From contig SVGR01000014.1 of NCBI GenBank assembly GCA_015056265.1, forward strand, positions 1 to 32,960: a stretch of 32,960 bases of DNA. The letters are read 5' to 3'. The DNA comes from Clostridiales bacterium (GTDB lineage Bacteria > Bacillota > Clostridia > Christensenellales > Aristaeellaceae). Under the pieces are notes generated by a model. The model had not been told where the DNA came from. It saw only the letters and a list, made by a program, of their open reading frames with translations, and searched no databases. Made by a program: the position numbers and the translations under genes. Positions 2,533 through 32,201 of the stretch are shown here, in pieces. Position 1 is the stretch's first letter; every line of letters begins with the position of its first letter.

Positions 2533-2547
2533 TCGTAAGATCAATAG

Positions 2548-2576
2548 CCCCGTCAGTGAAAACTGACGGGGTTTTT
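2548..2576 (+). terminator. Intrinsic terminator after rplA
   Basis: CCCCGTCAGT (2548-2557) pairs perfectly with ACTGACGGGG (2562-2571) around a GAAA tetraloop, followed by TTTTTGTTG. It is a textbook Rho-independent terminator 15 bases after the rplA stop and closes the ribosomal transcript. Confidence 0.95.
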
Positions 2577-2756
2577 GTTGTGCGAATCTCGATCACAAAT
2601 TCAATCATCTCAGGGCTCTTTTTTCCTATGGCTTTGTTTCACTTCGGTCAGCGTGACATTGTTGCGCTCCCTTCATGATACTTAGGCAGTGAGAAAACTG
2701 TTTCCGGGGCCGATCGAATTTTCGATCTCATTTCGTATTATTTGGATTATGTATTA
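2577..2756. other. Gene-free spacer between two terminators
   Basis: About 180 bases hold no plausible coding frame. A short palindrome, GATCGAATTTTCGATC, lies at about 2712-2727. I see no convincing promoter. Because a second strong terminator follows at 2757, the spacer may be the remnant of a lost gene or may encode a short transcript, but the sequence alone does not show either. Confidence 0.5.
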
Positions 2757-2785
2757 CCCTGCCAGTGAAAACTGGCAGGGTTTTT
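2757..2785 (+). terminator. Second intrinsic terminator with the same design
   Basis: CCCTGCCAGT (2757-2766) pairs with ACTGGCAGGG (2771-2780) around a GAAA loop, followed by TTTTT. The core CAGTGAAAACTG is identical to that of the terminator at 2548. No recognisable gene lies between the two. Confidence 0.9.
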
Positions 2786-2938
2786 GGATACGATTTATAT
2801 CCGTGAGGAGGAGTTGAGAGAAAGAAAACCTGAAATCAGATGGGAAGGAAAACAATCAGTGAAGGACAAAACTGAGCCTGCAATATAAAATGAAAAGAAA
2901 AGAAAAAATATTTACTATCCAAACGGATGAAAAACGTG

Positions 2939-2944
2939 TATAAT
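2939..2944 (+). promoter_or_regulatory. Probable -10 box of the GH27-led operon
   Basis: A perfect TATAAT lies 31 bases before the first start codon of the operon, in an AT-rich stretch. No TTGACA-like box is found at 16-18 bases. A TTTACTA lies 21 bases upstream, loosely like the upstream box seen at the SBP promoters farther right. Assignment as a promoter is based on position and the -10 only. Confidence 0.55.
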
Positions 2945-2974
2945 GAAAACAAATACATCGTTGGAGGATGAATT

Positions 2975-8976: not shown

Positions 8977-9819
8977 TCAGGTTCCTTTTTCCTGTCGGAA
9001 GGATCGGGGGGAGGAACCGGTAACCTGCTTGAACACATGGCAGAAATAGCTGTAATCATCAAATCCCACGGCCTGGGCCACGGCGGTGATGCTGCCCTCA
9101 TTTATCATCAGCAGTTCCTGGGCTTTGCGGATGCGCTTGTTGCGGATATAGGTGGTCAGGGGAATTTGCAGATGGGAGCGGACAGTTTCGTAAAATTGGG
9201 TGCGGCTCATGTGGAAATAATTGCATAAATCGGTGGCCTGGATGCGCTGATCCAGATGGTGATCGACGTATTCATCCAGCCGGCTCAGGAATTCTACATT
9301 GGACAAGGCAACCACACGGGTGGAATACAGATAGAGGGTGATGGCTTCAAACAATGTTTGGAAAGACATGAGCTTTTCTTCTGAAATGGTGGGCAGATTA
9401 TTGATGGCTTCCACCAGTTCAATGCCGTCTGCGCCGTAGACTTCATGGGCATGCTGATAGATGTGCATCCGATCCAATTGAGCAGTGCTGTCGATGAGCG
9501 CCTGGCCCAGCTGCATGTAGCACAGGGTTACTCCATCTTTCTGTACGGGGGAAATCATTTCCGTCAAGCCTGCATGACAGGTGTAGAGAACGGTTTGGCC
9601 TGATTGCTTGCACTGGAGAAAATGATCCCTATCGCATTTCCAGCAGGCATCATCAAATGCTTTATTCTTCCGCATCATTTTGCAGAAGGGGATGACGGTG
9701 TTTTCCGGATGACCGGTGATGCATACGCCGTCCAGATCCAATACGCCGGTGGCCATTCCTGTAAAGGAATAAAAGGATTTAATCAGCTGCTTCATCCTGT
9801 CTTTATCCAGCAAAAGCAT
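8977..9819 (-). CDS. PocR-domain AraC family transcriptional regulator
   Basis: This 280-residue regulator has two parts. Residues about 5-165 look like a PocR sensor domain: FYSFTGMATGVLDLDG, then a cysteine-rich stretch with FC at 46, AC at 59, CD at 62 and C70, and the family-typical SGQTVLYTCHAGLTEMISPV. Residues about 178-278 are an AraC/XylS DNA-binding domain with two helix-turn-helices: ATDLCNYFHMSRTQFY, and ITAVAQAVGFDDYSYFCHVFKQVTG. PocR domains sense small ligands such as diols or sugars. Its start has AAAGGGGGGATA upstream. It diverges from SBP1, the classical position of a local activator for CUT1 transporters, so control of the SBP promoters is a reasonable inference. Confidence 0.88.
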   Translation of the reverse strand: MLLLDKDRMKQLIKSFYSFTGMATGVLDLDGVCITGHPENTVIPFCKMMRKNKAFDDACWKCDRDHFLQCKQSGQTVLYTCHAGLTEMISPVQKDGVTLCYMQLGQALIDSTAQLDRMHIYQHAHEVYGADGIELVEAINNLPTISEEKLMSFQTLFEAITLYLYSTRVVALSNVEFLSRLDEYVDHHLDQRIQATDLCNYFHMSRTQFYETVRSHLQIPLTTYIRNKRIRKAQELLMINEGSITAVAQAVGFDDYSYFCHVFKQVTGSSPRSFRQEKGT

Positions 9820-10139: not shown

Positions 10140-11378
10140 ATGAAAAAACTGGTTGCCCTGCTGATGCTGGCGGTAATGCTCGTATCCAGTTTGCCTGCAA
10201 TGGCTGATGACGTGAGTGACGCAATGTACAAAGAAATCCGCGGAACCACGGTGTCCGTTCTGTTTGCGGCAGAGCCCACTGCTCTGCAGAAGAAGCAGAT
10301 CAAGGCCTTTGAACTGAAATACGGCTGCAAGGTGGAACCCTTTATCATGTCCTGGAACGACTGGAAAAACCAGTTCCTTTCCCTGGTTGTGGCCGGAACT
10401 GTGCCCGATGTGATCAGCATTCCTGATGAACCCTACCTCAAGTGGCTGGCCCGGGGCCTGCTCCAGCCGGTGGATGACTACATCAATGTGGACGATCCCA
10501 TCTGGAATCCCCTGGTATATGATGCCTTCGAATGGAAGGGCCAGCATTACGGCTTCCATTTCAATGGCGTTTCTCCCATCTATGTGGTTTACAATGCCAC
10601 TCTGTTCTATGAAAAGGGCGTAAAGACCCCCATGGAATATTATGAGGATGGCAAATGGAACTTCAAGAATTTCCGTAAGTGCGCCATTGAAATGACCGGC
10701 GACGGCGTGATCGGCTGCGGCACCGACTGGAAATACATCTTCGCCCTGGCCAACGGCAGCACCATCATCGATATCGATCGGGATAACGGCGTTGTCACCC
10801 TGGCTTTTAATGAGGAAAATGCCATTGCCGGCCAGGAACTGTGCGTGGAACTGGCCCAGGGCGGCTACTTCAAGTGGGGTAACTGCTTTGACGTATTCGC
10901 CAACGGCGAACTGGCCATGTTCATGGAACGGCCCGGCAACGTAATCGGTCAGTTTGACCTGCGCAACACCACGCTGGCCAATTCTGAAATCGAAATCGTG
11001 CCCATGCCCATCGGCCCCGATAACGATGAAGGTGTGGCCCCCGCCATTTTCGATGCTTATGGTATTCCCCGGGGCGCCAAGAATCCCTTGGGCGGCGCTG
11101 CCTGGGCCTACTATAATGCCCAGTACAGCGAAAAGCACAAGGATGACGAAGACGTGGTGGAAAACCGCCGCAAGACCTATACGGATGAACAGTATGAATT
11201 CGTCAAGGCTTATCAGGATGAAACCACTTTCATCAACACCTTCTGCTACGGTATCTGGTATGCGGAAGACTGGGCTTACTGGGCCGATATGTTCTACAAT
11301 GGCTATACTCCCCAGACGGCTTTCGCCAAGTATGAAAGTGAATTCCAGTATCTGATTGATAATATGTTTGTGGAATAA
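10140..11378 (+). CDS. CUT1 extracellular substrate-binding protein, paralog 1 (SBP1)
   Basis: This 412-residue protein is a family 1 extracellular solute-binding protein of carbohydrate ABC importers. Its signal peptide ends AMA/DD at residues 22/23 and has no lipobox cysteine. The mature start (SDAMYKEIRGTTVSVLF) leads into a two-lobed binding fold with ELKYGCKVEPFIMSWNDWKNQ, VPDVISIPDEPYLKWLARG and the aromatic-rich YEDGKWNFKNFRKCAIEM. The C-terminal part has YTPQTAFAKYESEFQ. It is paralogous to the proteins at 13717 and 15295, and closest to the latter. It is co-transcribed with the secreted two-module protein downstream. The gene lacks permeases of its own and presumably feeds the pair at 20138 and 21058. 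ATG 10140 is set by AAGGAGG and the signal peptide. Confidence 0.9.
   Translation: MKKLVALLMLAVMLVSSLPAMADDVSDAMYKEIRGTTVSVLFAAEPTALQKKQIKAFELKYGCKVEPFIMSWNDWKNQFLSLVVAGTVPDVISIPDEPYLKWLARGLLQPVDDYINVDDPIWNPLVYDAFEWKGQHYGFHFNGVSPIYVVYNATLFYEKGVKTPMEYYEDGKWNFKNFRKCAIEMTGDGVIGCGTDWKYIFALANGSTIIDIDRDNGVVTLAFNEENAIAGQELCVELAQGGYFKWGNCFDVFANGELAMFMERPGNVIGQFDLRNTTLANSEIEIVPMPIGPDNDEGVAPAIFDAYGIPRGAKNPLGGAAWAYYNAQYSEKHKDDEDVVENRRKTYTDEQYEFVKAYQDETTFINTFCYGIWYAEDWAYWADMFYNGYTPQTAFAKYESEFQYLIDNMFVE
10663..10778 (+). repeat. 116-bp segment nearly identical to 15818-15933
   Basis: Within SBP1 these 116 bases differ from the matching stretch of SBP3 at only three silent positions by direct reading, while the flanking parts of the two genes differ far more. 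It encodes the KNFRKCAIEMTGDGVIGCG region. Confidence 0.85.
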
Positions 11379-11430: not shown

Positions 11431-13341
11431 ATGAAGAAGTTTGCTCTGCTGCTGGTCAGCCTGATGCTGCTGCTGGCCGCCACCTCTGTCGCCATGGGCG
11501 AAGAATTCCCCTACGGCATGCTGCTGCGCGGCTTTGATTCCGCTGAAGAAGTGGAACTGGCCTTCGCGCATCAGGCACCCAATTTCGATATAACCGCTGT
11601 GGAAGCGGCTACCCCCTACGGCTCCTTTGCCGCTGAAATCGGCAGCGCCGAACAGAAGGGCTGGGGCAACCAGATGTACATCAATCTGGGCCGCTCCCTG
11701 GGCGCTACTGAAGCCGCCGAAGCGGATTACATCGGCTTCTACATCCAGACCCCCAAGGCCGTGGAACACAACGGCACCAAGTACATCCATGACTTCCTCA
11801 TGCAGGACGTGCAGATGACCAGCGAAGGCAATTGGTTCACCCTGGCCCTGAACGCCGAATACTATCTGCTGGCTGACGGCGCTTCCGAATGGGAAGTGCG
11901 CACCGCCGATGGCCCCAGCGTCATGGTTCCCTCCGAATGGAAGGGCTATGTGGTGTTTGAAATTGCCGATTTCTCCGCCAATGGCAAGAAGATGAAGGCT
12001 GCCAACGATTTCGGCAAGGAATGGGAAACCTATATTGCTTTCCATGTGCATGCCCTGGGCGGTGATGTGGGCCCCATCCGCGTGGAAAACTTCTTCGTGG
12101 CCGTGGATGAAAACGCCCCCGCAGCCGGTTATCTCAACTATTCTCTGCTGATTGACGTGATGACCCACCGTCCCTTGAAGGGAGAAATCCTGGGCTTTGC
12201 CGACGGCACCATCTTCACCAACTTCCCCTCTGCGCAGGAAGCCGGCTGGGCCGTGGGCGGCGCTGGCAGCTGCGGCTACACCGGCGTGGAAGCTAAGAGC
12301 GAATACGGCGATTATGCCGTCAGCTTCGACAGCGAAAGCCGGATTGGTTGGGGTGACGCCCAGTTCCTGGTCAATATGGGCAACAAGCTGGGCCGCACCG
12401 ACGTGGTCAATGCCACGCAGTTCGGTTTCTACATCACCGCTCCCAAGGGTATTGAAAACAATGGTACCCGGGAACCCAACGCTTTCCTCATGCAGGATGT
12501 GCAGATTCACAGCGAAGGCAAGTACTTTGGAATGAATTCCGGCGCCACCTATTATCTGAAGGAAAAGGGCTCCGATACCTGGGTCGAAAAGAAAATGGAC
12601 GGCCCCAGCGTGATGGTTCCCAGCGAATTTGAAGGGTACGTCATGTTCAGCGTTGATTCTTTCAAGAATCTGGGTGACGGCACGGTGATGGATCCCGCCA
12701 CTGCCTTCGGCAAGGATTGGCAGACCTTCCTGGCCTACCATGTAAACGCCTTGGGCGGCGATCTGGGCGGAATGACCATCGAAACCTTCTTCGCTGACCA
12801 CATCATGCCCGAGGCTGAAGTGGTTCCCTTCGTGGCCTATCCCAACAACACCGTCTGCGTTATCGGCCCCGCTTTCCGCGATTTCGCCGATCCCATCACT
12901 GACAAGTGGTACACCTTTATGCCCCTGGATCTGCAGAAGAGCGGCGAATATCGCTTCTCCCTGGCTGGCGGCAACTGCTACACCATCGGTGAAGTGGTCA
13001 TTACCGTGGATGGCGACAATCTGACTGCCAACTACAAGTACTACAATCTGGGCGCCGGCAACTGGCCCACTGAGGACCTGTCCCAGTATCTGAACTTCTT
13101 CGCCGATTACGAATCCGTCACCGCTGAAGCCCTGGAGGGCGAAACTCCCTTCCAGTTCGGCCAGACCTATTCCATCGCCAATGATCTGGGCGGCGATCAG
13201 CAGGTGCTGCTGTATGTGTGCAACCGCGCCTCCTTCTATACCCACAATGCTTCCATCGAGCCCTACAACGATGACGACTATCTCTACTTCTTCCGCAACT
13301 GGATGGCGGATATGGGCCTGGGCGATGCTTACACCCGGTAA
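11431..13341 (+). CDS. Secreted two-module protein of unknown family (putative glycan binding)
   Basis: This 636-residue protein has a type I signal peptide (about 1-23). Two copies of a ~190-residue, probably all-beta module follow (about 31-225 and 254-455). Shared landmarks are WGNQMYINLG / WGDAQFLVNMG, then GFY.Q or GFYIT, FLMQDVQ, DGPSVMVPSE, GYV, FGK.W and HALGGD / NALGGD. The order of strands and the tryptophan/tyrosine content recall jelly-roll carbohydrate-binding domains, but I do not recognise a named family. The C-terminal part (about 465-636) is different, with ITDKWYTFMPLD, VTVDGDN-like strands and NDLGGDQQVLLYVCN. There is no LPXTG, SLH or other anchor. It starts 52 bases after SBP1 and ends at a strong terminator. 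Binding glycan at the surface and passing it to SBPs is an inference. Confidence 0.72.
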   Translation: MKKFALLLVSLMLLLAATSVAMGEEFPYGMLLRGFDSAEEVELAFAHQAPNFDITAVEAATPYGSFAAEIGSAEQKGWGNQMYINLGRSLGATEAAEADYIGFYIQTPKAVEHNGTKYIHDFLMQDVQMTSEGNWFTLALNAEYYLLADGASEWEVRTADGPSVMVPSEWKGYVVFEIADFSANGKKMKAANDFGKEWETYIAFHVHALGGDVGPIRVENFFVAVDENAPAAGYLNYSLLIDVMTHRPLKGEILGFADGTIFTNFPSAQEAGWAVGGAGSCGYTGVEAKSEYGDYAVSFDSESRIGWGDAQFLVNMGNKLGRTDVVNATQFGFYITAPKGIENNGTREPNAFLMQDVQIHSEGKYFGMNSGATYYLKEKGSDTWVEKKMDGPSVMVPSEFEGYVMFSVDSFKNLGDGTVMDPATAFGKDWQTFLAYHVNALGGDLGGMTIETFFADHIMPEAEVVPFVAYPNNTVCVIGPAFRDFADPITDKWYTFMPLDLQKSGEYRFSLAGGNCYTIGEVVITVDGDNLTANYKYYNLGAGNWPTEDLSQYLNFFADYESVTAEALEGETPFQFGQTYSIANDLGGDQQVLLYVCNRASFYTHNASIEPYNDDDYLYFFRNWMADMGLGDAYTR

Positions 13342-13367
13342 TTAAATCGAATCTTTCCGAAAAAAGG

Positions 13368-13398
13368 GGCCTGTGCTTCGGCACAGGCCTCCTTCTTT
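13368..13398 (+). terminator. Intrinsic terminator after the two-module protein
   Basis: GGCCTGTGC (13368-13376) pairs with GCACAGGCC (13381-13389) over a TTCG tetraloop, followed by the U-rich TCCTTCTTTCG. It closes the SBP1 transcription unit. Confidence 0.9.
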
Positions 13399-13716
13399 CG
13401 TGAAAAACTGACCAACAACGAGCAGACATACCATGTTTGTGTGGAGAGAAAATATATATAATATAGTATACTCTTTGGACAAAAAAACAAAAGAAAATAC
13501 AAAAAAACAACTATCAGGAAATATTAAGCCCAAATAAATCAAGAAAAATTGCAAATTTAGATGTCGACCGGAAATATTCCATGAAAAAAAGAATAGATTT
13601 TCAGAAAATAAGTATATTATTTATATAATTCGGGTGTAGGAAGCGATATAATAGAATCAGAAAAATCATCCGTCGGTGAGGATGAGATATCAGACAAGTG
13701 AAAAGGAGACGAGATC
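13399..13716 (+). other. AT-rich upstream region of SBP2
   Basis: No gene is visible. The region contains TTTGGACAAAAAAAC (13474-13488), also found in the regulator/SBP1 intergenic region; GGAAATATT twice (13517 and 13570, the second part of the palindrome GGAAATATTCC); and the SBP2 promoter at 13620-13652. A leader of about 58 bases and AAAAGGAGACGAGATC precede ATG 13717. Confidence 0.6.
13620..13652 (+). promoter_or_regulatory. SBP2 promoter (TTTATAT-N20-TATAAT)
   Basis: TATAAT (13647-13652) lies in TAGGAAGCGATATAATA, identical to the SBP1 promoter, and TTTATAT (13620-13626) is again exactly 20 bases upstream. There is no TTGACA box. Confidence 0.7.
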
Positions 13717-14961
13717 ATGAAGAAACTGATTACGATGCTGTTGCTGCTGGCCCTTTTGACAACTTCTCTCCCCGCCATGGCAGACGAGCGCAGCGATGCG
13801 CTGTACAAAGGCATACGGGGAACCACCGTCACCATCCTGTTTGACAGCGAACCTACCACCCTTCAGAAAAAACAGATCAAGGCATTTGAACTGAAGTACG
13901 GCTGCAAGGTGGAGCCCTTCATCATGGCATGGAATGATTGGAAAAATCAGATGCTTTCCCTGGTGGTTTCCGGGGAGGTGCCGGATGTATGCTATGTGCC
14001 GGATGAGACCTTCCTCAAATGGCTCAGCCGTGGCCTGCTGATGGAACTGGATGATTACGTCATCGCCGATGATCCCATCTGGAATCAGCAGATTTGGGAT
14101 ATGTTTTCCTGGATGGGCAAGCATTACGGTATATCCAGCAATGGGATCAGCCCCTTGTACTGCATCTATAATGCCTCCATGTTTTATGAAAAGGGCGTGA
14201 AAACGCCTCTTGAGTATTACGAAGAGGGCAAGTGGAACTTCAAGAATTTCCGCAAATGCGCCATCGAAATGACCGGCGATGGCGTGGTCGGCGCGGGCAT
14301 TGGCTGGCGGTACGCGCTGAACCTGGCCAATGGCAATTCCCCCGTGGAGCTGGATCGGGAAAATGGCCAGATTCTCATCACCATGAATAACGAGCCCGCC
14401 ATTGCCGCCATTGAACTGCAGGCGGAGCTGCTGCAGGGCGGATATTCCAATATGGATGGCTGGGGCGTGCCCTTTGGTAACGGCCAGGTGGCCATGGTGC
14501 TGGAACGGCCCGTCAATGTGATTGGTCAGTTTGATCTGCGCACCACCACCATGGCCAATGCGGAGATCGAAATCGTTCCCCTGCCCATGGGCCCCGATAA
14601 TGAGGAGGGACTGGTGCCCTGCATTGCCGATGCTGTCGCCATCCCCAAGAATGCCAAGAATCCTTTGGGCGGCATGGCCTGGACCTATTTCCTGGCGGAA
14701 TACAATGAAAAGCATAAGAACGACGAAGACGTGGTGGCCAACCGCCGCAAGACCTATACCGATGAGCAGTGGGAATTCATTCAGGAATATGAAGAAGATG
14801 CCACCTTCATCAATACCTTCGTCTACGGCGTTGGCGATTGGTATCTGGGTGACTGGAACTATTGGACCGAAATGATCTATAATGGCCTCACGCCTCAGGC
14901 AGCTTATGCCAAGTACGAAAGCGAATTTCAGTATTGGATTGACGGAATGTTCCTGGAATAA
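13717..14961 (+). CDS. CUT1 extracellular substrate-binding protein, paralog 2 (SBP2)
   Basis: This 414-residue paralog of SBP1 and SBP3 has the same signal peptide layout (AMA/DE at 22/23, no lipobox) and the same framework: IRGTTVTILFDSEPTTLQKK, ELKYGCKVEPFIMAWNDWKNQ, WNFKNFRKCAIEMTGDGVVG. Segments likely to line the binding cleft differ: SWMGKHYGISSNGISPLY, GAGIGWRYALNLANGNSPVELD and NMDGWGVPFGNGQVAMVLERP replace the sequences that SBP1 and SBP3 share. This suggests another ligand or affinity. It has its own promoter and no partner gene. No clear + strand terminator follows, so read-through into SBP3 is possible. Confidence 0.9.
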   Translation: MKKLITMLLLLALLTTSLPAMADERSDALYKGIRGTTVTILFDSEPTTLQKKQIKAFELKYGCKVEPFIMAWNDWKNQMLSLVVSGEVPDVCYVPDETFLKWLSRGLLMELDDYVIADDPIWNQQIWDMFSWMGKHYGISSNGISPLYCIYNASMFYEKGVKTPLEYYEEGKWNFKNFRKCAIEMTGDGVVGAGIGWRYALNLANGNSPVELDRENGQILITMNNEPAIAAIELQAELLQGGYSNMDGWGVPFGNGQVAMVLERPVNVIGQFDLRTTTMANAEIEIVPLPMGPDNEEGLVPCIADAVAIPKNAKNPLGGMAWTYFLAEYNEKHKNDEDVVANRRKTYTDEQWEFIQEYEEDATFINTFVYGVGDWYLGDWNYWTEMIYNGLTPQAAYAKYESEFQYWIDGMFLE

Positions 14962-14991
14962 TCCAAATTTTATAAAAAAATGAGCGAAAAA

Positions 14992-15049
14992 GGGGAAGAA
15001 AAGAATGAAAATCCTAAAAAAATGAGGAAATTTTCTACTTTTCTTCCCC
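14992..15049. repeat. 12-bp inverted repeat downstream of SBP2
   Basis: GGGGAAGAAAAG (14992-15003) is the exact inverse complement of 15038-15049. Inside it, GAAAAT (15007-15012) pairs with ATTTTC (15030-15035), so the whole forms a long two-part stem. Read on the - strand the stem is followed by TTTTT; on the + strand no U tract follows. It overlaps the first SBP3 promoter. It may stabilise the SBP2 3' end or act as an operator. Confidence 0.65.
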
Positions 15050-15064
15050 CGAATGCAGTATAAT
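15032..15064 (+). promoter_or_regulatory. Distal SBP3 promoter (TTTCTAC-N20-TATAAT)
   Basis: TTTCTAC (15032-15038) lies exactly 20 bases before TATAAT (15059-15064). The flank AAATTTTCTACTTTTC resembles that of the proximal promoter (AAATTTTATACTTTTTC). Confidence 0.55.
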
Positions 15065-15168
15065 GTATTCAGCAGTTTTTCCGCAATCGGGCGGAGGAAA
15101 CGGCAAGAATTGACTGTACGCAAAGAGAGACAATTGTTTTTGAATACAGCAGGACCGGACGGAAACAA

Positions 15169-15213
15169 AAAAAGTATAAATTCTAAACAAATGGGACAAA
15201 TTTTATACTTTTT
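15169..15213. repeat. 12-bp inverted repeat at the proximal SBP3 promoter
   Basis: AAAAAGTATAAA (15169-15180) and TTTATACTTTTT (15202-15213) are exact inverse complements, 33 bases centre to centre, about three helical turns. The right arm coincides with the conserved TTTATAC upstream box, so the same box occurs inverted upstream. This is suggestive of a regulator operator. Confidence 0.6.
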
Positions 15214-15234
15214 CCGGACAAAAAAGGATATAAT
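15202..15234 (+). promoter_or_regulatory. Proximal SBP3 promoter (TTTATAC-N20-TATAAT)
   Basis: TTTATAC (15202-15208) lies exactly 20 bases before TATAAT (15229-15234), about 60 bases ahead of the SBP3 start. The flanking CCGGACAAAAAA recalls GGACAAAAA motifs near SBP1 and SBP2. It probably drives the long operon that begins with SBP3. Confidence 0.65.
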
Positions 15235-15294
15235 AAAAGAAATCTTCTTCTGGCGATAGAAGAAAACGGAATATGTATAAAGGAAGGTATCTGT

Positions 15295-16533
15295 ATGAAA
15301 AAGGCGATTTCTCTCCTGCTCCTGCTCAGTGTACTGCTTTCTGCATTACCTGCCATGGCAGATGATGCAAGTGACGCCCTGTACAAGGGAATCCGCGGTA
15401 CCACAGTTAGCGTGCACTTCACATCAGAACCCACTGCCCTGCAGCAAAAGCAGATCAGGGCGTTTGAGCTCAAGTACGGCTGCAAGGTGGAGCCTTTCAT
15501 TATGACCTGGAACGACTGGAAAAACCAGTTTCTTTCCTTGGTTGTATCCGGCAACGTGCCTGACGTGACCGGCACGCCCGATGAAACCTACCTTAAGTGG
15601 CTGGCCCGGGGCCTGCTCCAGCCGGTGGATGACTACATCAATGCGGATGATCCCATCTGGAACGATCAGGTTTGGGATGCCTTTATGTGGAAGGGCGATC
15701 ACTACGGCTTCAGCTCCGGCGGCGTTACCCCCATCTATGTGGTATACAATGCGACCCTGTTTTATGAAAAGGGCGTAAAGACCCCCTTGGAATACTACGA
15801 AGAGGGCAAGTGGAATTTCAAGAATTTCCGTAAGTGCGCCATCGAAATGACCGGCGACGGCGTGATCGGCTGCGGCACCGACTGGAAATACATCTTCGCC
15901 CTGGCCAATGGCAGCACCATCATCGACATCGATAAGGAAAACGGCAAGCTTTCCCTGGCATTCGATGATGAAAAAACCATTGCCGGTCAGGAACTGTGCG
16001 CGGAACTGGCCCAGGGCGGCTACTTCCGTTTCGGCAGCTGCTTTGATGTATTCGCCAACGGCGAACTGGCCATGTTCATGGAACGGCCCACTAACGTGAT
16101 CGGTCAGTTTGATCTGCGCAATACCACCTTGGCCAATTCCGAAATCGAAATCGTGCCCATGCCCATTGGTCCCGATAACGATGAAGGCGTGGCCCCCGCC
16201 ATCTTCAGCGTCAGCGCCATTCCGCGGGGCGCCAAGAACCCCCTGGGCGGCGCCGCCTGGATCTACTATCGGGCCCAGTACAGCGAAAAGCACAAGGATG
16301 ATGCGGACGTGGTGGAAAACCGCCGCAAGACCTATACCGACGAACAGTACGAATTTGTGAAGGAGTATGAAGAAAACACCAAGTTCATCAATACCTTCTG
16401 CTACGGCGTGTGGTATACGGAAGACTGGAATTACTGGGCTGATATGTTCTATAATGGTTATACCCCCCAGACGGCCTTTGCCAAGTATGAAAGCGAATTC
16501 CAACACATGCTTGACAGTTTGTTCGTGGAGTAA
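15295..16533 (+). CDS. CUT1 extracellular substrate-binding protein, paralog 3 (SBP3)
   Basis: This 412-residue protein is the closest relative of SBP1, with the same signal peptide layout (AMA/DD, no lipobox). Blocks such as WLARGLLQPVDDYIN, CGTDWKYIFALANGSTIIDID, NGELAMFMERP and SEIEIVPMPIGPDNDEGVAPAIF are nearly shared, while other parts (SSGGVTPIYVVYN) differ. It heads the long operon that supplies the permease pair at 20138 and 21058, so it is the probable cognate binding protein. The ATG has AAAGGAAGGTATCTGT upstream. Two tandem promoters of the same type precede it, implying extra regulatory input. The bound sugar is not predictable from sequence. Confidence 0.9.
   Translation: MKKAISLLLLLSVLLSALPAMADDASDALYKGIRGTTVSVHFTSEPTALQQKQIRAFELKYGCKVEPFIMTWNDWKNQFLSLVVSGNVPDVTGTPDETYLKWLARGLLQPVDDYINADDPIWNDQVWDAFMWKGDHYGFSSGGVTPIYVVYNATLFYEKGVKTPLEYYEEGKWNFKNFRKCAIEMTGDGVIGCGTDWKYIFALANGSTIIDIDKENGKLSLAFDDEKTIAGQELCAELAQGGYFRFGSCFDVFANGELAMFMERPTNVIGQFDLRNTTLANSEIEIVPMPIGPDNDEGVAPAIFSVSAIPRGAKNPLGGAAWIYYRAQYSEKHKDDADVVENRRKTYTDEQYEFVKEYEENTKFINTFCYGVWYTEDWNYWADMFYNGYTPQTAFAKYESEFQHMLDSLFVE
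15818..15933 (+). repeat. 116-bp segment nearly identical to 10663-10778
   Basis: This is the SBP3 copy of the conserved block described for SBP1. It has three silent differences by eye over 116 bases, in contrast to more diverged flanks, consistent with recent duplication or gene conversion. Confidence 0.85.
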
Positions 16534-16555
16534 TCCCGGGGATGAACCGGGGTTA
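16531..16555 (+). other. Hairpin starting at the SBP3 stop codon
   Basis: TAATCCCGG (16531-16539) pairs with CCGGGGTTA (16547-16555), with one G-U pair and a 7-base loop. The stem begins at the TAA stop. No U tract follows directly. Same position and context as the hairpin at the SBP1 stop. Confidence 0.6.
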
Positions 16556-16589
16556 ATCTATAAAAATTTTTTCAGAAAGGATGACCTAA

Positions 16590-19500
16590 ATGAAAAAGAC
16601 GTTGTCCCTGCTTCTGGCGGTCATGATGATGCTCAGCGTTGTGAGCATTCCTGCCATCGCCGAAGAACCCGCTTTCCAGTGGGGTAATCTGATCCTGCCC
16701 CTCGATTCCGCTGAAAAGGCGATCGAGGTATTCCAGGGCACCAGCGAAACGCTGACTGTTACTGCTGTGGAAGGCAAAGTTAACGCTTTCGCCGCCGAAA
16801 TCGGCAGCGAAGCCCGCCTGTACTGGGGCCCCACTGTTGTGGCGGATCTGGGCAAGCTGGAAGGCGCTGACGAAGCCAATTTCTTCGGCTTCCACATTGA
16901 CACCTGCCAGGGCGCTGCCAACTTCTCCAAGTGGCCTGCCGCGTTCCTGCTCCAGGACGTGCATATCAATGTTGACGGCACTATCTACTCCGTCGGCGGC
17001 GGTGAAACCTATTACATGCTGCCTGATGGCTCCACCGAATGGATTGACGATGTTACCGACGGCCCCTCCACCGGTATTGACGGCAATTTCTCCGGCCTGC
17101 TCGTGTATTCTCTCAAATCCTTCGTTAAAGGCGGCGGCGCCACTCTCAGCGGCGAAAAGCTGGCCAAGGCTGAAAATGTGAAGTTTGACTTCCATTTCAA
17201 CGGTCTGGGCGGTGAACTGGGATCCATGAAGCTGGAAGGCTTCTTCCTGAACAATCAGAAGAACTTCCCCGAAGAAATCGTGATCCCCACCCCCGTTGTT
17301 CCCGTGGCCGGCATGCTGCGCGACTTCGAAACCGAAGATGATGTGAAGGCTGCCTTCGCTTATCAGAACAACAACTTCACCGTCACCTACGTCAATGAGC
17401 ACACCGGCACCGGCAAGGGCGCCGTCATGCTCTCTTCTGAAACCGATCTGCACTGGGGCAACCAGATGTACATCAATCTGGGCAACAAGCTGGGCGCCAC
17501 CGACGCCGCTTTTGCCACCTTCATCGGTTTCCACATCCAGGCTGCCAAGGGCGCTGCCAACGGCACCCGCTGGGCTGACAGCTTCCTGATGCAGGATGTT
17601 CAGATCACCTCCGGCGGCGCCTGGTACACCCTGACTGCTGGCAACACCTATTTCTACAAGGCTGACGGCGAAGCCGAATGGGTGGAAGAAACCACTGACG
17701 GCTCCAGCCTGGGCCTGCCCGGCGAATTCAGCGGCTATGTGTTCATCCCTGTGGCCAGCTTCACCGCCGGCGGCGAACCCCTGAATCCCTATGAAATCTT
17801 CTCCAAGGAATGGGAAACCATGTTTGCCTTCCACGTCAATGCGGCTGGCGGCGAATACGGCTCCATCTACCTGGATACCCTGTGCTATTCTTCCGCTCCC
17901 ACCCTGGGCAATGTGCTGCGCACCTTCGAAACTGAAGAAGATGTGAAGGCTGCCTTCGCCCATCAGAACAACGCCTTCACCGTTACCTTCGTGGAAGACG
18001 AAGTGGGCAACGGCGCTGCCATGCTCTCCTCCGAAACCGATCTGCACTGGGGCAACCAGATGTACATTAATCTGGGCAGCAAGCTGGGCGACACCCCTGC
18101 CGCTCAGGCCCGCTACTTCGGTTTCCACATCCAGGCTGCCAAGGGCGCTGCCAACGGCACCCGCTGGGCTGACGCTTTCCTGATGCAGGATGTTCAGATC
18201 ACTTCCGGCGGCGCCTGGTACACCCTGACCAAGGATATGCCCTACTACTACCTGGCCGACGGCACCACCCAGTGGGTGACCGAAACCGTGGACGGCACCA
18301 GCCTTGGCCTGCCCAGCGAATTCTGCGGCTATGTGTACATCCCCGTGACCAGCTTCCTGGCTGGCGGCGAACCTCTCGTTCCTGCTGATATCTTCTCCAA
18401 ACAGTGGGAAACCATGTTTGCTTTCCACGTCAATGCGGCTGGCGGCGAATACGGTTCCTTTGTCCTGGATAACCTCGGCTATCAGCTGGGCTACGAAATG
18501 CCCGTGGTGGAAGAAGTAGAAGAAGTCGTCTATGAGGATATCGACGCTGTCTCCTACAAGGTGGACAAGGAAGCCATCAAGGCCATCAACGGCGAAAATG
18601 CCCTGCCCGCTTCTCAGGATGTGATCCTGCTGGCGGACTATGAAGATCAGGTTGTTGAAACCTACTACATGACCAATGCTTCCGACCGCACCGGTAAGGA
18701 ATTCTCCCGCCTGCATGTTGGCTCCGGCGAATATGCCATGAAGATGACCAGCATGAAGGAAATCACCTGGAACGGCGCTGTGAACTATCTGCTGCTGGGC
18801 AACAAGATGGGTACTCCCGAGCATCCTGCTTCCCAGGCCAAGTGGATCGGCTATCACATCTCCACCCCCAACGTGCCCACCTTCATGATTCAGGACGTGC
18901 AGCTGGCCGCTGACGGCGCCTGGTACACCCTGAAGGGCGGCTCCACCGCTTATATCATGGAAGACGGCGCTGATAAGTGGACCGATGTCAAGAGCACCGG
19001 CTCTACCATCTATCTGCCCGGCAACTGGACCGGCTTTGTGGCCTTCAATATCAGCGATTTCCTGTCTGACGGCAAGTCCCTGATCCCCGCCGACGTGTTC
19101 TCCAAGCAGTGGGGCACTTATTTCCAGACCCACTACAACCTGGCCGGCGGCCCCCACGGCTCCTACTTCGTGGATACCTACTTCATGCTGGCTGACGATC
19201 TCAATCCTGCCGCTCCCACCCTCACCGTGGACGGCGAATACCTGGCCGGTCTCACCGCTGCCCCCGCCAACGACGTGCTTAAGTCCCTGGCTGACAGCGA
19301 AAAGGTGCTGAAGATCGCCGGCGAACGCATCTATGCCCGTGCCATGGATGTGGCCGCTTTCAAGGCCCTGCTGGCTGCTGACGGCTGCGAAATCGCCGTG
19401 ACCAAGGAAGGCGCTGCCGCTGCCGATGACGAAGAACTGGCCCAGGGCATGGTGGTTACCGTTTCCAAGGACGGCGCCGCCATCGCTGCCTACTATGTTG

Positions 19501-20057
19501 CCAACATTACCCGCCAGCTGGATCCCGCCATCGTTTTCGCCCTCACGGCGAAGAAGGATGCCGCTGAAGAAGCCGGCGTGGTTGTGGATGAAAACGGTAT
19601 CTCCTGCATGAACATGAAGGCCGGCGAACTGATCGCCAACGTGTTCAGTGTGCCCTACGGCGCCGTGGCCCATGCCTTCAAGGATGGCGTGCAGGTGTCC
19701 GATGAAACCCCCGTGGAAACCGGCATGACCCTGCGCTGCTATGACGAGCGCGAACCCAACCTCTACTTCGAACTGGTCTTCGCCGAAGTGGGCGTGCTCG
19801 ACCTCACCAATGGCTACGCCCTGCAGACCGCAGAAGGCGCTTCCGCTGTGATTGAAGGCGGCGCTATCACCGTGCCCGCCGGCACCACCGCCGAAGAACT
19901 CTACGGCATGCTGATCTATGCCGGCGCTGATGATTTCGGCCTGCTGCTGGATGGCGATGAATTCCCCGTGGATGACGATATGGTCATCGAATCCGGCTGG
20001 ATCCTGCTGGTTGTGGACGATATGTACGAAGAACTGGCCCGCTGGATCATCCAATAA
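16590..20057 (+). CDS. Secreted four-module protein of unknown family (putative glycan binding)
   Basis: This 1155-residue protein has a type I signal peptide (about 1-24). Four copies of the same ~190-residue module as in the 636-residue protein follow: about 34-222, 242-434, 442-634 and 678-868. Copies 2 and 3 are nearly identical (WGNQMYINLG, GFHIQAAKGAANGTRWAD, FLMQDVQITSGGAWYTLT, AFHVNAAGGEYGS). Copy 4 is more diverged, and an acidic linker (EEVEEVVYED) precedes it. The C-terminal third (about 880-1155) holds about three small repeats with QGMVVTV / ETGMTLRC / ESGWILLVV endings, like the beta repeats that flank dockerins in clostridial surface proteins. No dockerin, LPXTG or SLH motif is seen. 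It lies between SBP3 and the permeases, so glycan capture for import is the favoured but unproven role. Codon use (mostly GAA, AAG, GGC) resembles the ribosomal genes, hinting at high expression. Confidence 0.72.
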   Translation: MKKTLSLLLAVMMMLSVVSIPAIAEEPAFQWGNLILPLDSAEKAIEVFQGTSETLTVTAVEGKVNAFAAEIGSEARLYWGPTVVADLGKLEGADEANFFGFHIDTCQGAANFSKWPAAFLLQDVHINVDGTIYSVGGGETYYMLPDGSTEWIDDVTDGPSTGIDGNFSGLLVYSLKSFVKGGGATLSGEKLAKAENVKFDFHFNGLGGELGSMKLEGFFLNNQKNFPEEIVIPTPVVPVAGMLRDFETEDDVKAAFAYQNNNFTVTYVNEHTGTGKGAVMLSSETDLHWGNQMYINLGNKLGATDAAFATFIGFHIQAAKGAANGTRWADSFLMQDVQITSGGAWYTLTAGNTYFYKADGEAEWVEETTDGSSLGLPGEFSGYVFIPVASFTAGGEPLNPYEIFSKEWETMFAFHVNAAGGEYGSIYLDTLCYSSAPTLGNVLRTFETEEDVKAAFAHQNNAFTVTFVEDEVGNGAAMLSSETDLHWGNQMYINLGSKLGDTPAAQARYFGFHIQAAKGAANGTRWADAFLMQDVQITSGGAWYTLTKDMPYYYLADGTTQWVTETVDGTSLGLPSEFCGYVYIPVTSFLAGGEPLVPADIFSKQWETMFAFHVNAAGGEYGSFVLDNLGYQLGYEMPVVEEVEEVVYEDIDAVSYKVDKEAIKAINGENALPASQDVILLADYEDQVVETYYMTNASDRTGKEFSRLHVGSGEYAMKMTSMKEITWNGAVNYLLLGNKMGTPEHPASQAKWIGYHISTPNVPTFMIQDVQLAADGAWYTLKGGSTAYIMEDGADKWTDVKSTGSTIYLPGNWTGFVAFNISDFLSDGKSLIPADVFSKQWGTYFQTHYNLAGGPHGSYFVDTYFMLADDLNPAAPTLTVDGEYLAGLTAAPANDVLKSLADSEKVLKIAGERIYARAMDVAAFKALLAADGCEIAVTKEGAAAADDEELAQGMVVTVSKDGAAIAAYYVANITRQLDPAIVFALTAKKDAAEEAGVVVDENGISCMNMKAGELIANVFSVPYGAVAHAFKDGVQVSDETPVETGMTLRCYDEREPNLYFELVFAEVGVLDLTNGYALQTAEGASAVIEGGAITVPAGTTAEELYGMLIYAGADDFGLLLDGDEFPVDDDMVIESGWILLVVDDMYEELARWIIQ
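17313..17891 (+). repeat. Module copy 2 of the four-module protein
   Basis: This segment encodes residues 242-434 and is closely repeated at DNA level by 17913-18491. Long stretches, for example those encoding GFHIQAAKGAANGTRWAD and AFHVNAAGGEYGS, are almost unchanged. It is a tandem intragenic duplication. Confidence 0.85.
17913..18491 (+). repeat. Module copy 3 of the four-module protein
   Basis: This segment encodes residues 442-634 and is the tandem partner of copy 2. The two are much closer to each other than to copies 1 and 4, so this duplication is the most recent in the array. Confidence 0.85.
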
Positions 20058-20137: not shown

Positions 20138-21055
20138 ATGAAACGTGCGCGTGGATTAAGCATGGAACATCGCAGGGGCCTGGCGGGGCTTGTATTTGTG
20201 CTGCCCTGGCTGATTGGCTTTTCAATTTTCTTTATCCGGCCGTTGGTCGTATCACTGACCTATTCCTTGCAGGCATTCAGCGCCGTTTCCCTGAGCTTTG
20301 TTCCCCTGAAGGACGGAGTGTTTGCCAACTACATCAATCTGTTCACGCAGGACACCAAATTTCTGCCCTATCTGACCCAGACCATGCAAACGCTGATGTA
20401 TCAAGCGCCGCTGGTGGTCTGCTTCAGTGTGATTGTGGGCCTGATGCTCAAAAGCAATTTCCGGGGCCGCACCTTCATGCGCGGGATTTTCTTCCTGCCC
20501 GTGATCGTTACCACGGGTATTGTTTCTTCCATTTTTAAGGCCAGTGTGCTCAATGTTGCCCAGGGTCCTGCCGATGCAGGCAGCTTCTTCAACCCCACCC
20601 TTATTCTGGCCGCCATGCAGAATGCAGGCATTCCCAACAGCATTAACCAAGTGATTTCCGGCATCATTACCAATTCCGCCGACGCCGTGTGGCTCAGCGG
20701 GATCCAGATCCTGATCATCCTGGCAGGCGTGATGAACATTCCCTCCAGCTACTATGAAGTGGCCGGGGTGGAGGGCGGCTCTGCCTGGGTGGTTTTCTGG
20801 AAGGTAACCTTGCCGCTGCTCAAGCCCTACCTGCTGGTAGTGGCCATATATACCATTGTGGACTCCTTCACCAGCACGACCAACGTTACCATGAAATATC
20901 TGATTGAAACGGTGTACGGAAATTATAATATTTCCTATGGTTCCGCCATGTTCTGGGTCTATTTTGTGATTGTGTTTGCCATTATCGGGTTCCTGTTCCT
21001 GCTCTTTACCCGGCAGAACCGGAAAGAAAAACGGATGCTGAAAGGAGGATATTGA
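20138..21055 (+). CDS. CUT1 ABC transporter permease (MalF/LacF type), pair 1
   Basis: This 305-residue inner-membrane subunit of a carbohydrate ABC importer has six predicted membrane helices, including FVLPWLIGFSIFFI near 20-33 and VYFVIVFAIIGFLFLLF near the C-terminus. The EAA loop that docks the ATPase is SSYYEVAGVEGGSAWVVFWKVTLP (about 203-226, in two parts here). ATG 20138 follows AAAAGGAGAGAAACAC; an internal ATG at 20162 is possible. It partners the next gene. Its operon position after SBP3 and the four-module protein points to uptake of the ligand of SBP1-3. No ATPase gene is nearby. Confidence 0.9.
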   Translation: MKRARGLSMEHRRGLAGLVFVLPWLIGFSIFFIRPLVVSLTYSLQAFSAVSLSFVPLKDGVFANYINLFTQDTKFLPYLTQTMQTLMYQAPLVVCFSVIVGLMLKSNFRGRTFMRGIFFLPVIVTTGIVSSIFKASVLNVAQGPADAGSFFNPTLILAAMQNAGIPNSINQVISGIITNSADAVWLSGIQILIILAGVMNIPSSYYEVAGVEGGSAWVVFWKVTLPLLKPYLLVVAIYTIVDSFTSTTNVTMKYLIETVYGNYNISYGSAMFWVYFVIVFAIIGFLFLLFTRQNRKEKRMLKGGY

Positions 21056-21057
21056 TC

Positions 21058-22008
21058 ATGCAGAAAAATAAAGCGGCCACTTCTCCCGGATACTACTGGG
21101 GCATGCTGGCGTTCAAATTCTTCCGCTTTGCCTTCATGGCGCTGATGACCTTTGTGGTGCTCTATCCTGTGATTTATATGATCAGCATGTCCTTCCGTAC
21201 GGTGGAGGATGTATACGATCTGACGGTAGTATGGATCCCCAAGCATCTGTCCGTCAATTCCTTTACTTTGCTGTATCATGATTTGGGCATTGTCAAGCCG
21301 CTGCTGAATACCGCCTGGATCAGCATTTCCAGCGCCGTTTTGCAGACCTGCGCCGCCGCTATCACCGGTTACGGCTTTGCCCGGTTTAAGTTCCCCTTCC
21401 GGGGGCTGCTGTTCCTGCTGCTGGTATTTTCCATCGTGGTTCCGCCTCAGATGATCGCCATGCCCACCTATCTGATGTTCAGCAGCTTTGATATTTTCGG
21501 TATCTTCACGGCGCTCAACGGCGCGCCCATTTCTCTGTTGGGCAAGCCTGGGCTCTTCCCCTTCATGGCCATTCTGGGCTCCGGTATCCGCGCTTCTCTG
21601 TTCATCCTAATCATGCGGCAGTTTTACACCGGCATGCCCAAGGAACTGGAAGACGCCGCTCATATCGACGGCTGCGGCCATTACCGGTGCTATTGGCACA
21701 TTATGCTGCCCGCTTCCGTTACCCAGATGATCATGGTGTTCCTCTTCTCCATCGTATGGTACTGGAACGATTACTATTTCGCCAGCATCTATCTGGGGGG
21801 CGCCAGTACCTTCTCGGTAAAGCTTTCCTCCATCCGGGCGGCCCTGGAAACATCCGAAACCCTGGGTCAGCTGTCCCACAATTCGTATCAGATCGCTATT
21901 TATGAGCAGGCGGGATGCTTGCTTCTGATCGCGCCGCTGATTATTCTGTATCTGTGCCTGCAGCGCCATTTCGTGGAAAGCATTGAAAAATCGGGCATCG
22001 TGGGTTAA
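21058..22008 (+). CDS. CUT1 ABC transporter permease (MalG/LacG type), pair 1
   Basis: This 316-residue second permease subunit has a first helix at about 22-45, a GYGFARFKFPFRG motif typical of MalG-like proteins, and the EAA loop LEDAAHIDGCGHYRCYWHIM (198-217). The C-terminus HFVESIEKSGIVG is also family-typical. ATG 21058 is chosen because it lies 9 bases after GGAGG. The in-frame TTG at 21052 is too close to that site, although it would overlap the previous stop. It forms a heterodimer with the product of the preceding gene. Confidence 0.9.
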   Translation: MQKNKAATSPGYYWGMLAFKFFRFAFMALMTFVVLYPVIYMISMSFRTVEDVYDLTVVWIPKHLSVNSFTLLYHDLGIVKPLLNTAWISISSAVLQTCAAAITGYGFARFKFPFRGLLFLLLVFSIVVPPQMIAMPTYLMFSSFDIFGIFTALNGAPISLLGKPGLFPFMAILGSGIRASLFILIMRQFYTGMPKELEDAAHIDGCGHYRCYWHIMLPASVTQMIMVFLFSIVWYWNDYYFASIYLGGASTFSVKLSSIRAALETSETLGQLSHNSYQIAIYEQAGCLLLIAPLIILYLCLQRHFVESIEKSGIVG

Positions 22009-22019
22009 GGAGAATGGAT

Positions 22020-24623
22020 ATGAGAAAATTTTTGTTGATTGTGCTTCTCATGTGTCTGGCGGCGCTGCCCGCCCTGGCGCTGGAGGAAACCTATCCTTTG
22101 GACGTGCCGGAGGATGGGGAATATCTGCTGCAGTTTTCCTACCGCGCCATGCCCGGCAACGGCACCCCGCTTCGGATTCGGGTAACGGTGGACGGCGTGG
22201 ATGCGGGGGAAGAAATCACCCTGCCCCGGCTGTGGAAGGATGAAACCGACGGCGATTTCGAGCGGGATGAATTCGGGGACGAGTTGTCCCCCCGTCAGGT
22301 GGAGGTTTTTGATTGGGCAGAGGCCACGTTGTGGAAGGAAAATGCGTGCGACGACGCACTTTTCACCCTGTCCCTTACCCAGGGGAGCCATGAAATCGGC
22401 ATTACTGCCGTCCAGGGCGAGCTGGAAATCCGGGACGCAGCACTGGTGAAGGCCCCCGCCCTGCCCACTTACGAAGAATACATCAAGCAGTATGAGGGAA
22501 TGGAGCATCATGCGCAGGATACCGTCCTTATCCAGGCGGAGCGGGCATCCCTCAAATCCCTCCGGGGCCTGACCCCTTTCTGCGACCGCAGTTCCCCCAA
22601 TGTGACCCCTAACGATTCCAGGACGCTGCTGCTCAATTCCCTGGGCGGTTACAGCTGGCGGCAGATGGGGGACTGGGTGGAATGGTCCTTCAACGTGCCC
22701 GAGGCCGGCTTCTATACCCTGTCTTTCCACTATCTGCAGAATAATAAGCAGGGCATGGCATCCATTCGCTCTATCCTGCTGGATGGGGAAGTCCCCTTCC
22801 AGGAATGGGAGTATGTGGGCTTTGATTATGGCTTTGGCTGGACGAAGCAGGAGCTTCCCCAGACCGTATATCTGACGGAAGGGGAACATACCCTGCGGCT
22901 GGTGTGCCGGCTGGGGGACAGCGCCCCTGTGCTCAAGGCCCTGGATGAAGCGGTGGAAGCGCTGGGCAATGTGTACCGGGATATCATCATGGTTACCAGC
23001 GCCACCCCCGACCTGAACCGTGACTATTATCTGGACAGCGAAATTCCCGGCATGATGGAGGGCTTCGAAAAAGCCCGGGAAGCCCTGAATACCCAGAAAT
23101 CCGCCCTCTATGCCCTGGGTGGGGGCAGCAGCAATGCCTCCTTCCTGCAGGTGGTCATCGATCAATTGGATGAATTTCTGGAGGATCCCCGGTGCATCCC
23201 GAAAAAGCTGATCACCTTCCGCAGCAATATCACGGCGCTGTCGGATATTCTCAAGAGCATGCAGGAACAGCCCCTGGCCCTGGACCGGATTGAGCTGGTG
23301 CCCCAGGGCGGCAAGGCCCAGGGCGATGCTGGGCTGCTGGAGAATCTCTCCTTCCGCTTTGGCTGCTTTCTCAATTCCTTTGAAAAGGATTATTCCAAGA
23401 TGGGCAAGGGCGGTGAGCTGACCGTATGGCTGTCCGCCAGCGGCGTGGGCGATAAAGGTGCCGCCATCGGCCGTGACCAGGCCCAGCTGATTGAGCAGAT
23501 GATCCGCAGCGGCTTTACCAAGGAAACGGGCGTGAAGGTCAATCTTTCCTTGGTCAATGCGGAGGCAGCCATCGTGCAGGCCATCGTTTCCGGCACCAAC
23601 CCGGACGTGGTGATGTTCGCCGGCGAAGGCACCCCGGTGATCCTGGCGGTGCGCAGCGCTGCGGAAGACCTGACCCAGTATCCCGGCTATGCGGAAATTG
23701 CGGATCGGTTCCATCCCTCTGCCATCATTCCCTTCACCTTTGAAGGCGGGGTATACGCCCTGCCCGATACCCAGATGTACTACATGATGTATTACCGGAC
23801 CGATATCTTTGAGGATATGGGCCTGGAAATCCCCAACACCTGGGATGAATTCTATGCGCTGATCAAGAAGCTGCATCTTAACAACCTGAGCGCCGGTATT
23901 TCCGGCGGCGACCAGACCATTCTGGAAATGTTCCTGCTCCAGCGGGGCGGCAATCTCTACGACGATAAACAATCCTATACCCGGCTTACCGAACCGGAAG
24001 GAATTGAAGCCTTTACCGCCTGGACGGAACTGTACACCAAATACGGCATGACCGTGGCCTTTGACTTCTTCAACCGTTTCCGCAGCGGCGAAATGCCCAT
24101 CGGCATCATGCCCCTGTCCCTGTATGCCACGCTGGTATCCGCCGCTCCGGAAATCGCCGGCCGGTGGGCCATGGCCCCGGTGCCCGGCATCATGGATGAA
24201 AACGGCAATATCATCCGTACCGAAAGCAGCCAGGCGGCAGGCACACTGATGCTCTCCGCGGCAAAGAACAAAGAGGCAGCCTTCCAGTTCATTGAATGGT
24301 GGAGCCGTGCGGAAACCCAGATCGATTTCGGGCAGGCGGTGGAAGCCGCTTACGGCCCGTCCTCCCGTTATTTCACCGCCAATACGAAGGCCATGGAGCA
24401 ATTGGGCTGGAGCAGCGGGGAAATGGAAGCACTGATGGCCCAGCGGGAACATCTCACCGATATTCCCATGACGCCGGCCAGCTATTACGTATCCCGGTGC
24501 CTGACCAATGCTTTCCGCAATGTGGTGTATTATCAGGGCAATCCCCGGGAAATCATGGTGCGCTATGCGGAGCAGATGGATGAAGAATTGCTGCGCAAGC
24601 GCCAGGAATTTGGATTGGAATAA
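22020..24623 (+). CDS. Large substrate-binding protein with N-terminal beta domains (SBP4)
   Basis: This 867-residue protein has a type I signal peptide (1-20, ending ALA, no lipobox). A beta-rich domain follows (about 21-145). A second beta domain (about 165-300) resembles CBM6/CBM35-type galactose-binding folds: VLIQAERASLKS, GDWVEWSFNVPEAGFYTLSF and LTEGEHTLRLVC. After a helical linker (about 305-455) comes a family 1 solute-binding domain (about 466-867), starting GELTVWLSASG, with NPDVVMFAGEGTPVILAV and YALPDTQMYYMMYYRTDIFEDM. It is roughly twice the normal SBP size. ATG 22020 is preferred over 22014 for its 8-base distance to AAGGAG. It is placed before the second permease pair, which it probably serves. 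Confidence 0.85.
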   Translation: MRKFLLIVLLMCLAALPALALEETYPLDVPEDGEYLLQFSYRAMPGNGTPLRIRVTVDGVDAGEEITLPRLWKDETDGDFERDEFGDELSPRQVEVFDWAEATLWKENACDDALFTLSLTQGSHEIGITAVQGELEIRDAALVKAPALPTYEEYIKQYEGMEHHAQDTVLIQAERASLKSLRGLTPFCDRSSPNVTPNDSRTLLLNSLGGYSWRQMGDWVEWSFNVPEAGFYTLSFHYLQNNKQGMASIRSILLDGEVPFQEWEYVGFDYGFGWTKQELPQTVYLTEGEHTLRLVCRLGDSAPVLKALDEAVEALGNVYRDIIMVTSATPDLNRDYYLDSEIPGMMEGFEKAREALNTQKSALYALGGGSSNASFLQVVIDQLDEFLEDPRCIPKKLITFRSNITALSDILKSMQEQPLALDRIELVPQGGKAQGDAGLLENLSFRFGCFLNSFEKDYSKMGKGGELTVWLSASGVGDKGAAIGRDQAQLIEQMIRSGFTKETGVKVNLSLVNAEAAIVQAIVSGTNPDVVMFAGEGTPVILAVRSAAEDLTQYPGYAEIADRFHPSAIIPFTFEGGVYALPDTQMYYMMYYRTDIFEDMGLEIPNTWDEFYALIKKLHLNNLSAGISGGDQTILEMFLLQRGGNLYDDKQSYTRLTEPEGIEAFTAWTELYTKYGMTVAFDFFNRFRSGEMPIGIMPLSLYATLVSAAPEIAGRWAMAPVPGIMDENGNIIRTESSQAAGTLMLSAAKNKEAAFQFIEWWSRAETQIDFGQAVEAAYGPSSRYFTANTKAMEQLGWSSGEMEALMAQREHLTDIPMTPASYYVSRCLTNAFRNVVYYQGNPREIMVRYAEQMDEELLRKRQEFGLE

Positions 24624-32167: not shown

Positions 32168-32201
32168 AGCGCCTTGAATGATAATGACAGGAGGAAAAAA
32201 C

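Follow-up and report, generated by a model that had tools for sequence, protein, structure and literature searches.

Repeated beta-sandwich modules of an unnamed family in putative glycan-capture proteins encoded beside solute-binding protein genes of a Clostridiales bacterium

What do two secreted proteins built from tandem copies of a module of no named family do beside the genes of an ATP-binding cassette (ABC) importer? The question is raised by the window analyzed here—one whole contig of 32,960 bases (SVGR01000014.1, labeled C77) from a Clostridiales bacterium—whose genes p1 and p2 encode proteins of 636 and 1155 residues. An earlier note on this DNA had described six tandem copies of one module in these two open reading frames (ORFs), and we found them as placed: the module is ~200 residues long, with two copies in p1 and four in p2, and the two proteins match each other by blastp with E down to about 3e-90, far above chance. 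Both begin with a signal-peptide-like stretch (by eye), and Pfam recognizes no catalytic domain in either. Judging from the modeled fold, p1 and p2 probably catch sugars outside the cell. More specifically, we favor, at a probability of roughly 0.6, that they are non-catalytic, multivalent, extracellular glycan-capture proteins whose modules bind glycans and concentrate polymers or oligosaccharides for the solute-binding proteins (SBPs) and permeases encoded in the same window.

How conserved is the module? We aligned nine copies—the six window modules and three from a paralogue, p3 (957 aa), which lies on C35, another contig of the source genome (as are C71, C112, and C176, mentioned below). 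Pairwise identity among the nine is 23-74%, and 16 columns are invariant in 9/9 copies: W54, G63, A74, G78, I81, F97, Q100, D101, G125, W129, G147, F156, H180, G185, G186, and G189 in the numbering of p2 copy 2. The sequence landmarks that the earlier note had quoted are real, although p2 copies 1 and 4, which have diverged furthest, lack several. p3 is 63% identical to p2 over p2 residues 235-1155. In the module tree, p3 copy 3 is paired with p2 copy 4 (100/100) and p3 copy 1 with p3 copy 2 (99/98), as would be expected if modules were duplicated further or converted once p2 and p3 had split. C71 encodes two additional proteins with one module each, p5 (384 aa) and p4 (220 aa); these distant copies lack the QD-Q strand of the others.

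What kind of domain is it? The AlphaFold2 (AF2) model of p2 copy 2 (pLDDT 86.8, pTM 0.86) has strands throughout and forms a compact beta-sandwich, in agreement with the beta jelly-roll proposed from the sequence, and 34 of the 50 rows of structural neighbors are carbohydrate-binding module (CBM) or carbohydrate-active enzyme/surface glycan-binding protein (CAZyme/SGBP) entries. The likeness to beta-sandwich CBMs (CBM11, CBM22, CBM30, CBM4, CBM27, CBM28, and CBM61) lies in the predicted fold, with 7-18% identity in the structural alignments, and no named CBM family gives a significant sequence match (Pfam models). CBMs are usually recognized as domains appended to a carbohydrate-active enzyme, whereas these modules are not attached to a recognized catalytic domain in p1, p2, or p3. 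Because the fold is shared but neither a sequence match nor attachment to an enzyme is found in the window, the module would best be classed as a new family of a known domain kind in an unusual pairing, new with respect to the named libraries that were searched.

Pfam returned 0 matches for p1 and p2 at E<=10, and 11 module copies scanned singly matched only unrelated families (best E 0.18). NCBIfam and PHROGs produced chance-level matches only (best E 0.13 and 0.034, respectively), and p2 alone searched by sequence against the PDB reached a best E of 1.3. The proposal of a new, unnamed family thus stands insofar as Pfam, NCBIfam, and PHROGs hold no model for it; the module is not an isolated invention, however, because it is part of a wider superfamily of secreted domains, likewise without a Pfam model.

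The superfamily was traced with four profiles: A2 (the modules), A4 (window modules only), A6 (window modules plus remote rows), and A7 (nine remote rows, no window row). Three further families of the order gave marginal matches; with these included, the profile picked up additional secreted domains sharing the pattern GF-GYV-IPF. In ten such relatives, Pfam gives nothing significant for the shared domain; the sole above-threshold matches, to the repeat domains Flg_new and Flg_new_2, fall outside it in one of the proteins. Compared profile to profile, A2 and the nine remote rows score 54.7 (93.9%, E 1.5e-7), unchanged without the row common to both, and A4 scores 48.0 (90.2%); the best of 100 column shuffles scores 16.1 and a reversed alignment 17.1. 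The remote rows were picked with A6, which includes the window modules, so the choice favors a match and the test is not fully blind. At E<=0.01, A6 finds 8/293 genomes of the order; three of the seven other than the source genome had supplied rows to A6, which leaves four new ones (E 4e-8 to 4e-4). In one distant relative (L018) the domain is joined to a GDSL hydrolase, and several relatives end in a C-terminal hydrophobic stretch followed by a basic tail (by eye). A designed beta-propeller, matched by A2 in the PDB (best E 0.0017), was judged to have no more than a short hairpin motif in common with the module, given that none of the stretches passes individually and that the module is modeled as a beta-sandwich.

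How widely is the module itself distributed? In overlapping samples of genomes, strong matches were confined to the source genome: 1/200 genomes of the family, 1/391 of the class, and 1/398 of the phylum. In the order, the module profile matched 4/296 genomes, with E values of 2e-4 to 8e-4 in three; in the genus, it had no strong match among the 28 genomes besides the source (best E 0.306). Scans that detect close relatives only found none in genome contigs (16 and 191 pattern stretches), viral contigs (29 stretches), or plasmids (tblastn).

The C-terminal domain of p1 appears, from sequence comparison, to be common in its family, unlike the module. It recurs in p5 (47% identity over 271 aa, module end included), and p5 used as a query has matches in 108/300 genomes and 20/50 genera of the family—among the matches listed, mostly to this domain. 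Among the proteins listed, it is preceded by laminin-G, 3keto-disac_hyd-type, repeat/coiled-coil, and Ig-like-looking stretches. As a separate observation, the domain also occurs in a ~310-residue secreted protein heading a conserved run that ends with an Lgt-like gene (loci L055, on C112, and L111-L116). In 6/6 neighborhoods—picked because the two end genes lay close together—the order is the ~310-residue protein, proteins of ~270-290, ~620 (shorter as called in one), and ~300-320 residues, and the Lgt-like gene; the middle genes presumably encode proteins resembling a pseudouridine synthase, a CapA-type protein, and an NAGPA-type protein. The C-terminal region of p2, which p3 has as well, by eye appears to consist of three short repeats with similar acidic/hydrophobic strand ends (19203-20054).

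Are the modules tied to the SBPs? The earlier suggestion that module genes directly follow an SBP gene proved true at 4/4 module loci of the source genome (two on C77, one each on C35 and C71). On C71, the second module gene sits behind the first, and much of the window gene order recurs. There are exceptions on the side of the SBPs: no module gene comes after a close SBP paralogue on C176, and SBP 2 of the window is followed by SBP 3. The C176 run (L041 1-2151, minus strand) consists of the SBP gene, a DUF4832 protein gene, and, where the contig ends, an ORF that looks corrinoid-protein-like by eye. SBPs of the window type number five at 66-100% identity and one at 33% within the source genome; in the 28 other genus genomes the best match is 31% identical, and any match occurs in 20/29 genomes, the source genome included. 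They are thus an expansion of the source genome.

The signal peptides of these SBPs are of the AxA type, with no lipobox cysteine seen (by eye; window 10140, 13717, and 15295; L041, L006, and L053). An SBP without a lipobox cysteine is unusual for a Gram-positive importer. An inability of these genomes to make lipoproteins was considered and rejected, since Lgt (PF01790) is matched in 29/29 genomes of the genus; it is multi-copy (2 to 8 matches per genome), with most weaker matches well below the best copy.

Is there reason to expect large amounts of these proteins? Codon adaptation was computed against rplK, rplA, rplJ, and rplL, which are themselves among the 122 genes ranked (called by our own script). 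The module proteins stand near the top: p4 0.834 (rank 1/122), p2 0.781 (5), p1 0.740 (8), p3 0.686 (11), and p5 0.555 (25). The window SBPs reach 0.640, 0.616, and 0.499, and values for four permease genes of the window are 0.451-0.495; elsewhere in the source genome, further secreted proteins that look lectin-like are also high (0.72, 0.688, and 0.643). The abundant expression proposed from codon use is therefore borne out at the level of codon adaptation, and such values would fit a role needing many copies.

How might glycan capture work? Each ~200-residue module would act as a CBM-like beta-sandwich domain, and two to four in tandem would lend avidity for a polymer or clustered glycan. 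Secreted in large amounts, p1 and p2 would keep the glycan near the cell, where it would be available to the SBPs, whose genes lie immediately upstream, and to the ABC permeases, whose genes lie downstream; the C-terminal domain of p1 may retain that protein at the surface. A comparable way of working, set beside ours by description only, is that of Sas20-type proteins of Gram-positive gut bacteria such as Ruminococcus bromii: according to PMC9112005, Sas20 is secreted in abundance and has at least two binding domains that belong to no recognizable family. Sas20, however, is part of a starch-degrading surface complex, whereas the genes of p1 and p2 stand with those of SBPs and ABC permeases. 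Should glycan binding by the modules hold, a carbohydrate-binding family is missing from the searched libraries, within a wider superfamily of secreted clostridial domains that has no Pfam model, and its annotation would hint at functions for many hypothetical surface proteins. The finding would further illustrate how SBP-feeding bacteria concentrate polymers at the cell, a matter settled for Bacteroidota and open for most Clostridia.

The SusD/SGBP proteins of Bacteroidota resemble this arrangement by analogy only, as the envelope and importer differ (ABC with SBPs here vs. TonB-dependent SusC). A bolder version, which we regard as speculative and unlikely, is that this lineage built a Gram-positive counterpart of the SusD/SGBP strategy: unanchored SBPs would be paired one-to-one with multivalent, lectin-like proteins made at ribosomal level from an uncatalogued beta-sandwich superfamily, and the p1 C-terminal domain would be a new surface-retention domain tied to a conserved envelope operon with an Lgt paralogue.

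Could the modules bind protein instead of glycan? A structural coat or scaffold, whose abundant jelly-roll modules would hold the lipobox-less SBPs in particular at the cell wall, is a rival reading that accounts for most of these observations as well, and we consider it possible though doubtful. Several observations favor it. The codon adaptation of the module proteins is at ribosomal level, the pairing of module and SBP genes is strict, and the window SBPs show no lipobox despite Lgt in the source genome and in 29/29 genomes of the genus. Furthermore, the FlaA1 sheath protein is among the 50 structural rows, 16 of which are not carbohydrate proteins. The best single PDB relative, 8SMQ, found by structure and, via the wider profile, by sequence, is the N-terminal domain of a Clostridioides difficile surface protein of unknown function, CD630_25440. 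The fold is alike, with a match covering model residues 5-167 only; by sequence A7 reaches E 2.3e-6, but the profiles containing window modules have no significant match (A6 E 0.32; A2 not listed at E<=10). An excerpt of PMC10792529 describes it as a single domain in a 358-residue protein, crystallized as a strand-swapped octamer. Against a scaffold stand the fold neighbors, most of which are carbohydrate binders; the invariant Trp/His/Asp/Gln set, which may be typical of ligand grooves; the close C176 SBP without a module partner; and other SBP genes of the genome that also seem lipobox-less (by eye) and have no module neighbor.

Alternatively, the modules might bind a small or non-carbohydrate ligand that is taken up by the transporter and sensed by the divergent PocR-type regulator, which we think quite improbable. 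PocR domains sense small molecules such as propanediol, and PocR-AraC regulators adjoin SBP genes on C77, C35, and C176; the corrinoid-protein-like gene on C176 and a weak URO-D match in the C71 run (PF01208, E 7.8e-4) point the same way. Tandem multivalency would be of little use for a small soluble ligand, however, and the glycosidase-type neighbor genes and fold neighbors likewise speak against this reading. Least credible of all is that the repeats or the contig arose by misassembly or contamination of the source genome—a 2.36-Mb metagenome bin of 176 contigs, 77.65% complete and 5.13% contaminated, with no close relative of the module in any other genome searched—because the repeats are too dissimilar (24-74% mutual identity) to be assembly duplicates, two further contigs (one of which also bears ordinary housekeeping genes) carry paralogues built in the same way, and the C77 left end belongs to the genus, its secE-nusG-rplK-rplA proteins being up to 97-99% identical (DNA 87-93%) to those of the nearest genus genomes.

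What else does the window encode? Coordinates are given in Table 1. The PocR-AraC gene, on the minus strand, is followed by SBP 1, p1, the hairpin, SBP 2, SBP 3, p2, two permease genes, and the gene for an 869-aa SBP protein; beyond it lie two permease-like genes (by look) and genes for NHL/TPR, Yip1, DUF5696, and DUF4874/4832 proteins. The 869-aa protein has a weak CBM6-like stretch (PF03422 CBM_6, E 5.7e-4, 20.6 bits vs. a cut-off of 28.9); kinship of its N-terminal part with the module was unsupported (hhalign probability 0.1%). A promoter scan of the window was at background (9 found vs. 9.9 expected). Limited literature searches turned up no publication on this locus, and a literature search gave no paper naming DUF5696.

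Table 1. Positions of the module proteins, their parts, and neighboring features in the 32,960-base window
Feature	Position	Strand	Basis
p1, 636 aa, secreted; two modules and C-terminal domain	11431..13341 (ATG at 11431)	+	ORF, blastp
p1 module copy A	~11506..12120	+	profile A2 E 4.8e-86; alignment
p1 module copy B	~12190..12849	+	profile A2 E 4.6e-76 at 12202-12804; alignment
p1 C-terminal domain, unnamed	12850..13338	+	47% identity to C71 p5
p2, 1155 aa, secreted; four modules and ~285-aa C-terminal region	16590..20057	+	ORF, blastp
p2 module copy 1, diverged	~16662..17294	+	profile A2 E 2.1e-72
p2 module copy 2	~17295..17894	+	profile A2 E 4.8e-96; AF2 model
p2 module copy 3, 74% identical to copy 2	~17895..18491	+	profile A2 E 8.7e-91
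p2 module copy 4, 54% identical to p3 third copy	~18600..19202	+	profile A2 E 3.4e-78
p2 C-terminal region, common to p3	19203..20054	+	p2-p3 alignment; no Pfam match
SBP 1	10140..11378	+	PF13416 SBP_bac_8 E 2.1e-18, 67.6 bits (cut-off 27)
SBP 2	13717..14961	+	PF01547 SBP_bac_1 E 1e-15, 58.9 bits (cut-off 26)
SBP 3	15295..16533	+	67% identical to SBP 2
AraC-type regulator with PocR sensory domain, divergent from SBP 1	8977..9819	-	PF10114 PocR E 1.3e-29; PF12833 HTH_18 E 3.7e-19
Strong terminator-like hairpin 3' of p1	13366..13391	+	11 pairs, 8 G-C, T-rich tail
ABC importer permease	20138..21055	+	PF00528 BPD_transp_1 E 3.5e-7
Second permease gene	21052..22008	+	sequence look and position
869-aa protein, C-terminal SBP domain	22014..24623	+	PF13416 E 9.3e-29
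DUF5696 protein, same gene run downstream	28642..30705	+	PF18952 E 3.1e-127
DUF4874/DUF4832 protein	30722..32167	+	PF16173 E 1.8e-33; PF16116 E 2.9e-17

Among seven relatives compared, the region 3' of rplA varies from genome to genome; in their rplKA stretches, none of the other window genes was detected (tblastn, E<=1e-8), and neither was rplJ or rplL. By eye, rplJ-rplL lies apart from rplK-rplA, near the Lgt-containing gene run, in the source bin and in genome G069 (window 1843-2975; L055 62-994; L114 10164-11000). At the right end of the window (30722-32960), two secreted proteins of the same type follow in succession (MLKNPDRGFRIE / MLKNPNRGFRLE), the first being the DUF4874/4832 protein and the second interrupted by the contig end (by eye).

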